Assembly: GCF_021295095.1 (NCBI RefSeq)
Contig: NZ_JAJLQX010000001.1
Coordinates: 186,001-250,000 of the forward strand
Length of the DNA stretch: 64,000 bases
From: Phocaeicola oris
Lineage (GTDB): Bacteria > Bacteroidota > Bacteroidia > Bacteroidales > Bacteroidaceae
Direction: 5' to 3'
Shown here: in pieces, positions 6,293 to 49,335 of the stretch
Layout: every line of letters starts with the position of its first letter
Numbering within the stretch: position 1 is the stretch's first letter
Program-made: the position numbers and the translations under genes
Notes under the pieces: generated by a model
Databases searched by the model: none
What the model saw: only the letters and a program-made list of their open reading frames with translations
What the model was told of the DNA's origin: nothing

Positions 6293-6569
6293 GTATTCAT
6301 TTGAAGATTTTTTCGTTTCACTTAGGTGAAACAAACGAATGACGCAGACGATCCGTGCGATTCATGCGGATGACTTTGAGAACTCATGCGGATGAGTTGA
6401 TTGATTCATGCGGATGACTTTGGCAACTCATGCGGATGAGTTGAGCGATTCATGCGGATGAGTTAGGCGGTTTATACATATTGACTTTTCTCTATTTATT
6501 GATGACAAATCCAATGAACCTATCAATACGAATAAAAACATTGTTTGAAGATGTTGTAAGACTGTTTTT
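6293..6569. repeat. Dispersed repeat element, copy 1: array of 22-bp palindromic units
   Basis: Five near-identical units carrying CATGCGGATGA start at 6363, 6385, 6407, 6429 and 6451, an exact 22-bp period; two diverged units precede them (6319 and 6341). Units alternate, giving a 44-bp higher-order repeat (6363-6406 and 6407-6450, 40 of 44 identical). Cores are palindromic with a 4-nt centre, for example CAACTCAT-GCGG-ATGAGTTG, and the first unit is GTTTCAC-TTAG-GTGAAAC. A left flank (6293-6321) and a right tail (6543-6569) recur at other copies. It lies between convergent genes and has no plausible coding content. Confidence 0.85.
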
Positions 6570-6696
6570 ATAAAAAAATGCCATAAGATAAGTTGCATAA
6601 TAAGAATGCATGATAAAGCAACCTGAGCTTTTTGATAAGAAGTGATATACTAACTACCGTTAATGAATAATGAAGAAAAGAGTGATTTCTGCCTTA

Positions 6697-15570: not shown

Positions 15571-15714
15571 GTCATCCATATCTTTGTGTCAACTCATACG
15601 TATCATTTAGTCAATTCATCCGCATAAACCAATCAACTCATCAGCATCATTTTACCAACTCATCAGCATCATTTTAGTAACTCATACGTATCAGTTGAGC
15701 AATTGATACCTGTC
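15571..15714. repeat. Dispersed repeat element, copy 2: 22-bp period array
   Basis: The anchor TCAT recurs with an exact 22-bp period: pentamers of the form NTCAT or NTGAT start at 15571, 15593, 15615, 15637, 15659, 15681 and 15703. Typical unit centres are CTCATACGTATCA and CTCATCAGCATCA; the 4-nt centres vary while the TCA...TGA/TCA framework stays. The end (GTCACTTTCAC at 15712) resembles the right end of the other copies. It fills the space between the AmgK-RapZ gene and a truncated membrane gene. Confidence 0.75.
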
Positions 15715-15760
15715 ACTTTCACGAAAGAAGAGAGAAGAGTCTCTTCAATGCCTTATTGTC

Positions 15761-20004: not shown

Positions 20005-20130
20005 GAATTCATTAATATTTTTTGTCCGGTTCATGCTGATGAGTTGAGTAAGTGATGCTGATGAGTTGGTAAAGTCATCCGTATGAGTTGGACGGTTCAT
20101 GCGTATCACTTTGTCGGTTCAAACGTATCG
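20005..20130. repeat. Dispersed repeat element, copy 3: 22-bp period array
   Basis: Unit cores ATGCTGATGA (20033 and 20055), ATCCGTATGA (20077), ATGCGTATCA (20099) and AAACGTATCG (20121) are spaced exactly 22 bp. The left side (GAATTCATTAATATTTTTTG) resembles the left flank of copies 1 and 5. It sits between the convergent mtgA and hexosaminidase genes. Confidence 0.75.
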
Positions 20131-26620: not shown

Positions 26621-26651
26621 AAAGAAGTGATAAAGTTAATCGCCCAAACTG

Positions 26652-26835
26652 ATGCGGACGACCGGATGAAGTCATGCGGATGAGTTGATCAATTCATCCG
26701 CATGAGTTATGCGATTCATGCGTATGAGTTGGACGATTCATCCGCATCACTTTTCTCGACCTTCTTTATAACTATTTTTATAAGCTTGACGAAAAGCCAA
26801 AAAGCTTCGTTTAAACATGCTGTAAGTTCGTTTTT
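26652..26835. repeat. Dispersed repeat element, copy 4: 22-bp period array
   Basis: Unit cores ATGCGGACGA (26652), ATGCGGATGA (26674), ATCCGCATGA (26696), ATGCGTATGA (26718) and ATCCGCATCA (26740) are exactly 22 bp apart. The array ends in CATCACTTTTCTCG and is followed at 26809-26835 by GTTTAAACATGCTGTAAG, the tail shared with copies 1 and 5. It lies in the divergent spacer between the TonB receptor and a small lipoprotein gene; the rest of that spacer shows no coding sequence. Confidence 0.8.
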
Positions 26836-27050
26836 CCTTATGGGTCAGGCTTATACTGTCCTTGCGGTTGATAGTGTGGAAAACGTAAATCTTATAGTGA
26901 AAAAATCAAGAAGTAAGCCTTTATCGTTCAAATGTATAATACATATAAATGGTGCTTTGAAGTATATTAAAAGCTCTTGTCTCAGGATATTCCCTTTTTT
27001 CTATAGGAAAACACCTATGCTAAAATAGGATTTTTCCTTCACGAAAGGAA

Positions 27051-48656: not shown

Positions 48657-48860
48657 AATTCTATAATTTTAAATTGTTTTCTTATACAAAAGTCTGAAAT
48701 TTTTCTATATTGTACAACAATTTTCCTCTATGTTTGTATAGATTCAAATCTATGAATAAAACTTCGCGTGTTAAATCGGGGAGTTCCTGTTTCTTTGCAA
48801 TTGCTTTTACCGATTAATTCTACTAAGAGGGCTATGTGGAAGCCTGCGAAGGAGTAATAC

Positions 48861-49063
48861 GGTCTTATAACATGTTTAAACAGTGTTTTCCCTTTTTTGT
48901 AAGGTTTATTGAAAATGTCATAAAGAAATTGGCAAAAGTGATGCGTATGATTCATTTGTTTCACCTATGTGATTCACTTGTTTCACTTCTGTGAGACGAT
49001 TGTTTCACCTATGTGATTCACTTGTTTCACTTCTGTGAAACGAAAAAATCTTCTGATGAATAC
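48861..49063. repeat. Dispersed repeat element, copy 5 (inverted; TTTCAC/GTGAAA subfamily)
   Basis: Five 22-bp units start at 48940, 48962, 48984, 49006 and 49028. Units 2 and 4 (CACCTATGTGATTCAC...) are identical and alternate with units 3 and 5 (CACTTCTGTGA...), a 44-bp higher-order repeat. Palindromes such as GTTTCAC-TTCT-GTGAAAC are evident. Positions 49035-49063, read in reverse, match the left flank of copy 1 at 27 of 29 bases, and 48861-48886 in reverse carries the GTTTAAACATGTTATAAG tail, so the copy is inverted. Confidence 0.85.
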
Positions 49064-49335
49064 AGCAACTTATATGGTTCACTATCTTTGTTCTTTCGTA
49101 TCATTTTCCATGTTTCTACGTATCGTATCGATGGTTGGTTCATTTAAAAAACGTGTATTATTTTGTGAAGTACTAATAGTGATGCATTGTTCGTGTATAT
49201 TGAATTCGTCGAATTCACTTTATTAGAAGAGTCTGTTTTGATGTTTTTGAGGGAAGATATAAAGAGAAGTGTATGCGTATAGGGAAAAGAATGGAACATA
49301 ACTTTCATAGCGTGAGGGAATCATCTCGTTTTAAC

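Follow-up and report, generated by a model that had tools for sequence, protein, structure and literature searches.

The spacer between the rho and DUF3127 genes in this stretch contains a run of near-palindromic 22-bp units, and the question raised by the locus is what such runs between genes are. A preliminary description had offered a defined mobile element or a multimeric binding site. We analysed the window, meaning the whole 64,000-nt stretch (G000:C11:186001-250000), together with the genome it belongs to, a 2.98-Mb draft of 50 contigs with a completeness of 95.13. The two explanations are not alternatives, as the element carries the site.

Copy 1 begins with a leader remnant (6293..6333, + strand) that holds one TCAC-class dyad (GTTTCAC-TTAG-GTGAAAC, 6315-6332). 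The array itself (6362..6461, + strand) consists of five TCAT-class units at 22-bp spacing (6362, 6384, 6406, 6428 and 6450) with identical cores (TCATGCGGATGA), and further degenerate units were recognized by eye at 6340 and 6472. The five units and their 22-bp steps are real as first described, with starts (6363 onwards) that had been set one position too high. A tail remnant follows (6487..6575, + strand; tail model R3, E 2.9e-8). Related arrays had been reported at 15.6, 20.0, 26.7 and 48.9 kb and all of them keep the 22-bp steps. These are six TCAT-class units at 15594..15715 (- strand), four TCAT-class units at 20031..20108 (+ strand), five TCAT-class units at 26650..26749 (+ strand; the first core, at 26650, is degenerate and the other four occupy 26672-26749) and five units at 22 bp at 48939..49038 (- strand), of which four are TCAC class and one TCAT class. 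Where the preliminary description had given a TCAT-N4-ATGA core or its variants, two half-site classes can be told apart, TCAT/ATGA and, at 48.9 kb, TCAC/GTGA. The shared left flank was reproduced at the same coordinates (6293-6321 against 49063-49035 reversed, 27 of 29 bases). The shared right tail was recovered in copy 1, at 26.7 kb (26755..26863, + strand; E 6.0e-12) and at 48.9 kb (48829..48935, - strand; E 3.2e-19, with the element on the - strand), and no R3 match was found at 20.0 or 15.6 kb. A 108-aa ORF at 26702-27028 overlaps the 26.7-kb array and is probably a spurious ORF through the repeat.

The period was compared with chance in two ways, both avoiding full use of the unit's own letters. 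The loose core TNAY-N4-RTNA gave 20 lag-22 pairs in the window (other lags: mean 0.7, maximum 3) and 14 triples. In the closest congener, 240 kb yielded one pair at this lag (other lags: mean 0.48, maximum 3) and no triples. With arms of any 4 bp allowed, the dyads of the window formed 12 lag-22 pairs against 1.6 after shuffling, and six triples against none. The arrays in the window are real and far above chance. The units are not the exact palindromes they had been called, palindromy being imperfect beyond about 4 bp; perfect 5-bp-arm dyads left zero lag-22 pairs in the window and were dropped as a search handle because the arms are imperfect.

Across the genome, arrays were collected with model R1, a profile built from 57 unit triples (A1), four of them from Flavobacterium. 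The part of its 261 own-genome matches that was listed, merged with the matches of other patterns, gave 113 candidate arrays. The set that was counted has 111 arrays with 579 units, consisting of 109 of these candidates and two more arrays in the window; the four candidates left out are C14:33542, C34:247, C25:11989 and C10:56657. Neighbouring units lay 22 bp apart in 444 cases at a threshold of 8 and in 450 at a threshold of 6. The only other distance met three or more times was 44 bp, and the remaining breaks of up to 100 bp between units measured 14, 43, 65 and 65. Five units were found in 47 of the 111 arrays, six in 27 and four in 23, with a usual range of 4-7. The unit can be written as L7-N4-R7-link4, with two half-site classes (TCAT/ATGA and TCAC/GTGA) that both keep the 22-bp spacing. 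The first half-site is most often AAGTGAT (42/111) and the last most often ATCACTT (44/111), so that the two borders of an array are often inverted repeats of each other. The strands are not equivalent, as G is common at L positions 6-7 and C is rare at R positions 6-7. The 4-nt centre had been said to change freely, which does not hold for the TCAT class, since 533 of 579 such units in this genome have CG in mid-centre. The TCAC half-sites GTTTCAC/GTGAAAC (L152 645-745; window 48956-49038) resemble the parS half-sites of ParB, but with a 4-bp spacer where parS has none.

A search that started from the tail approached the arrays from their flank. R3 was built from 22 tails and, with E limited to 0.01, matched 69 own-genome places. 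In the 230 bases preceding the tail, at least two cores at 22 bp were present in 63 of the 69 and at least three in 60, compared to one of 690 stretches in the shuffled control, and the best self-lag before the tail was 22 in 63 of 69. The array is thus a near-constant part of the element. Forty of these arrays belonged to the TCAT class and 23 to the TCAC class, and of the steps between successive exact TCAC-N4-GTGA cores, 75 of 75 measured 22 bp. Two arrayless tails were strong matches, C35:9368 (E 1.1e-23), where the contig stops about 130 bases before the tail, and C44:108262 (E 1.2e-20); the other four had E > 1e-6 and one of them was antisense to another match. Of the tail matches, 29 overlapped the 111 arrays and 34 added new array-bearing places, giving a total of 145. 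This is a lower bound, because it omits tailless TCAC arrays as well as three of the four candidates left out earlier.

The flanks of the arrays identify the carrier. A leader precedes 37 of 109 arrays and a tail similar to that of another array follows 36 of 106. Aligned by eye, these flanks terminate in inverted repeats (TAACGTGAGTTCGAYGAA), and this pattern occurred at 84 own-genome places with up to three mismatches, compared to three for the reversed control. In the window, the 48.9-kb copy retains such an end at 49205..49222 (- strand; G000:C11:235205-235222:-) with two mismatches. The youngest copies are about 380-450 bp long. In the fresh, near-identical elements L152-L154 the order is leader, TCAC-class units, two TCAT-class units and tail, and near-identical elements differ in unit number by whole units. 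In a set of inverted ends lying 120-900 bp apart in 475,735 own-genome bases, the 7-bp flanks of 14 pairs were identical in three, had one mismatch in three and three or more in eight. Pairs that enclose arrays were mostly 353-448 bp apart, with one alternative pairing of 556 and one 648-bp hybrid.

The inverted ends (ACGTGAGTTCGAYGAA) are common to an IS982-family insertion sequence. The 648-bp hybrid (L150; C1:1195-1842) is bounded by two inverted ends, and in it an element end is joined to an N-terminal, IS982-like transposase fragment. The 7-bp flanks of the hybrid agree at six of seven positions, and the fragment matches IS982 with an E of 7.8e-7 and 28.9 bits, below the family cut-off of 130. 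An insertion sequence with both ends was found on IMG/VR contig L339 (1-1050), with an IS982 score of 255.6 bits. This contig is possibly not viral, and an 811-aa ORF adjoins the insertion sequence. No triple of cores at 22 bp was found in the L339 insertion sequence, which thus does not require the array. The left end of the MITE (miniature inverted-repeat transposable element) agrees with a multicopy element at contig ends, which we take to be the resident insertion sequence, at 28/28 and then 39/43 bases. Exact matches to the inverted end numbered 21. For 13 of them a contig end is no more than about 215 bp away, and the assembly thus appears to be broken in the multicopy insertion sequence, and more copies may be missing from it. 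Contigs with exact inverted ends near their own ends are C2, C3, C8, C12, C16, C19, C23, C28, C29, C32 and C34. Inverted ends shared with an IS982 element, target-site duplication and a short, multicopy body without a transposase gene characterize an IS982-type MITE family, and this identification of the mobile part is well supported. The family is new, with a near-obligate, helically phased dyad array inside it.

The element spread recently and within one lineage. A search of 60 further congeners for the tail, scored with stricter filters and accepting matches to E 0.001, found none; 36 of these genomes have a completeness of 90% or more. A strict two-unit pattern occurred at 73 own-genome places and in none of 39 relatives, 23 of them congeners. 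The rho/DUF3127 spacer that holds copy 1 measures 565 bp in this genome. In 16 of 29 congener loci the same gene pair lay within reach, with 45-141 bp in 14 and with 279 and 408 bp in two, and the broader model R2 gave no significant match at the 29 loci (best E 0.18). Six syntenic spacers were longer here than in the closest congener, G1135, by 130, 436, 238, 29, 466 and 434 bp. The 434-bp excess belongs to the 15.6-kb array, which lacks an R3 tail, so that at least some bare arrays look like the remains of whole MITEs; the excesses of 29 and 130 bp are not indicative of this. The proposal of a defined mobile element is borne out by the shared inverted ends, the 7-bp target duplications of the youngest copies, the IS982-family partner, the spacers longer than in congeners and the absence of the tail from the 60 congeners. 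A horizontal source in plasmids or phages was dropped: a fresh MITE query had no match in plasmids or phages, the two-unit pattern was found in no viral contigs, and the inverted-end pattern was found in three viral contigs, none with a tail match.

No description of the arrays or of the MITE family was found in the open-access literature searched. Judged from the available part of PMC4596501, the closest described system is BrickBuilt, a MITE of Porphyromonas gingivalis with a 23-nt unit (AGAYCATARTATCCTCTCRTRTG) and 19 copies in strain ATCC 33277, whose inverted ends (e.g., GAGACCTTTGCA) are most like ISPg1/ISPg9. According to that text, BrickBuilt is likewise an intergenic MITE with short inverted ends like those of resident insertion sequences, a leader, a tandem repeat of about two helical turns and a tail; it also expands by whole units, has a limited host range and predicted long stem-loops, and its leader-to-tail version always has the full repeat. 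It differs in unit length (23 nt compared to 22 bp here), in the TNAY-N4-RTNA core (present in none of 16 consensus expansions), in the type of its ends (GAGACCTTTGCA compared to ACGTGAGTTCGAYGAA) and in copy number (19 compared to at least 145 places), and the available text describes no two half-site classes such as are present here. MITECca01, an IS982-derived MITE of about 240 bp from a Cardinium endosymbiont, shares IS982-family inverted ends and lineage-specific spread, but no internal tandem array is described in the part seen, and 'tandem' occurs 0 times in its main text (PMC9769881). REP, BIME and REPIN elements are likewise species-specific, intergenic, palindromic and clustered (PMC3733652), and the available parts of PMC3733652 and PMC5771137 contain nothing on arrays of the present kind. 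Mobilization by a RAYT (Y1) transposase, as in REP/BIME-type elements, would account for such tandem palindromes, but Y1_Tnp (PF01797) had no match in this genome (completeness 95.13) compared to a match in five of 14 control genomes, and the element here has inverted ends and target duplications. This origin is highly improbable and was dropped for this genome. BIMEs also serve as binding sites, for gyrase and IHF.

Array and tail differ in conservation. Over 21 tail-bearing elements, identity averaged 0.755 in the tail columns, where 2013 bases held 20 indels. In the same elements the unit has ten positions conserved at 0.96-1.0, and the positions interleaved with them stand at 0.40-0.89. 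Part of this conservation is ascertainment, as the profiles that found the arrays contain the conserved positions and favour intact units; the tail-first search eases this in part, R3 itself being derived from array-bearing elements. Fixed and variable columns alternate within the unit, and homogenization alone is therefore insufficient to explain it. A neutral minisatellite, in which the 22-bp unit of the MITE multiplies by slippage and its geometry is inherited and not selected, as perhaps in BrickBuilt, would fit the whole-unit variation among near-identical MITEs, the near homogeneity of some arrays (e.g., C44:52890 and C49:29397) and an unbiased gene context, and it would be possible if the 22-bp duplication were the sole change permitted. 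We consider it unlikely, however, given the alternation within the unit while the tails of the same elements drifted, the geometry shared by two half-site classes and by other genomes, and the rarity of off-register steps. An array transcript, or single-stranded DNA, that folds into a long rod to stabilize, terminate or titrate is the reading that folding predictions bring to mind: nine arrays (seven own, two from other genomes) gave z-scores of -4.15 to -8.61, compared to -0.03 and 0.61 for two own tails, and the forward strand folds better than the reverse (-45.4 compared to -29.6 kcal/mol), its asymmetric positions being G-U compatible. The arrays fold into long rods because their units are near-palindromic, and real arrays (106 with 4-7 units, excluding five of the 111) folded worse than arrays of permuted parts (-45.4 compared to -49.9 kcal/mol). 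Among the 579 units, paired cells within units and across linkers showed no excess over column shuffles. The sole exception was position 6 of inner units (P = 0.013, 300 shuffles), where a non-partner control was likewise in excess. Position 3 held C-G in 321 units, G-G in 143, C-C in 72 and G-C in 14. Mutual information at positions 3 and 5 was high when all units were taken together, but pairs were then fewer than expected, and in inner units it disappeared. Pairing of unit i with unit n+1-i did exceed shuffles (0.717 compared to 0.640 at position 3, 0.748 compared to 0.643 at position 5); first-last unit pairs alone showed no excess, and we therefore read this as an effect of the end units as a class. 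What is kept in the units is thus not stem pairing. The RNA stem was dropped on the lack of covariation within units and across linkers and on folding weaker than in permuted controls, and a hairpin of either kind is quite unlikely.

Bending or wrapping is another way in which an array of this period could act. AT and AA/TT steps every 11 bp would then wrap a gyrase- or HU-like protein without dyad-specific reading. Dyad lags of 22, 33, 44 and 55 stand out in own loci, which corresponds to an 11-bp half period, and across genomes no part of the half-site is better conserved than the AT step at its positions 2-1. The mid-centre CG and the near-strict T4 and A2 exceed the needs of a bending periodicity, however, and TCAC-class arrays lack the AT step, which makes this explanation very unlikely.

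The reading we favour, and hold to be probable, is that an IS982-type MITE carries a helically phased platform for a dimeric DNA-binding protein. IS982-family transposases would move the MITE in trans through its ends, making 7-bp target duplications, with the array as an internal part in which the 22-bp unit would grow and shrink by whole units. Each unit may be a two-fold site made of a half-site RAnTnAT (GTTTCAC in younger copies), a 4-bp centre, the mirrored half-site and a 4-bp linker. With this geometry half-sites recur every 11 bp on one helix face and alternate in orientation; the putative dimer would occupy neighbouring dyads there side by side and cooperatively. Its binding would preserve the array as leader, tail and ends degenerate. 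A bound protein would in our view be the best reason for the array. As for its purpose, our guess is a local platform of nucleoid or insulator type, by which the MITE would be tolerated in intergenic positions, or an aid to transposition. Plasmid iterons and partition sites are arrayed operators, helically phased repeats for a DNA-binding protein; the present arrays have the helical phasing and conserved positions of these systems and differ in being more than 100 dispersed, chromosomal and MITE-borne. The earlier idea of a multimeric binding site is plausible, with indirect support from near-exact phasing, interleaved conservation and the lack of stem covariation within units. Against the favoured reading stands the strand asymmetry at positions 6-7, unexpected for a symmetric double-stranded site. 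Gene context also shows no preference that would reveal a role: by simple ORF calls, 50 of the 111 arrays lie between tandem genes, 28 between convergent and 22 between divergent genes, ten at edges and one inside a called ORF. Convergent arrays were closer to genes than divergent arrays (median 107 bp compared to 240 bp), as expected if promoters are spared, and nothing pointed to a role confined to promoters or terminators.

The same geometry recurs outside this lineage, as scans of other Bacteroidota confirmed (the preliminary description had urged one of other Bacteroidales); few of the sampled genomes have such arrays, and most of these lack a common flank. Among the 84,980 species of a collection from which the present genome may be absent, the two-unit pattern occurred in one contig, that of Flavobacterium paronense. 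This species has about seven dispersed arrays, three of them within segmental duplicates; automated placement was off for L040, L041 and L043, where the arrays are evident on reading. The F. paronense arrays L038, L040, L041 and L043 adjoin a second kind of intergenic repeat, AGCCCCGATAGGAGC...GCGGATAGCGGGAGCAG, in either orientation. R1 matched eight of 395 phylum genomes including the present one (G230 is among the eight and is not counted below), and R2, at E up to 0.01 and again including the present genome, matched 30 of 393 genomes of the order and 16 of 395 of the class. Only G504, G703 and G689 gave R2 matches below 1e-6 besides the present genome, the next being at 1.9e-4. The 22-bp spacing was found with other arms (TTAT/ATAA, TAAT/ATTA, CAAT/ATTG) and centres in G703 (eight loci), G504 (three), G348 (two), G046 (two), G101 and G326. 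In G689 two of three loci keep it by script and a 22-bp run is visible in the third (L280). Three units in G051 and two in G167 stand outside the half-site average. Over nine genomes this average, biased towards the models used to find the arrays, is RAnTnAT (1.87, 1.81, 1.28 and 1.08 bits at positions 2, 1, 4 and 6). The common geometry elsewhere is RAnTnAT-N4-ATnAnTY at 22 bp, in a few distant Bacteroidota and mostly free-standing. Similarity among the eight G703 loci ends at the array borders, and these arrays are thus free-standing, while both arrays of G046 lie within a 344-bp repeat.

This recurrence, the most interesting loose end, may reflect shared ancestry, a shared protein or convergence. 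A possible extension, which we put forward only tentatively, is a Bacteroidota-wide class of platforms with RAnTnAT half-sites every 11 bp in alternating orientation, which would be read by a conserved DNA-binding system of lineage-varying specificity (half-site positions 3 and 5 and the 4-bp centre) and would here have been captured by an IS982-type MITE and spread to the 145 or more places. If the arrays are protein platforms, one genome would offer at least that many natural variants of a phased operator array, and the re-coded versions in several unrelated genomes would be a handle on a Bacteroidota DNA-binding protein. If they are neutral, a MITE plus minisatellite still exists with different ends in at least two Bacteroidota families, BrickBuilt and the present one, and the combination itself needs explaining. 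Among the weaker R2 loci, no clear 22-bp dyad array was seen on reading L174, L177 and L200 at the match. At least two loose cores at lag 22 were present in eight of the 40 weak loci L173-L212, including L173 of G689, and some weak R2 matches may therefore be real arrays. One of the 40, L183 (G481), has three loose cores at 22 bp in its weak R2 match near 1511 and may be a further array, from a different family of the order.
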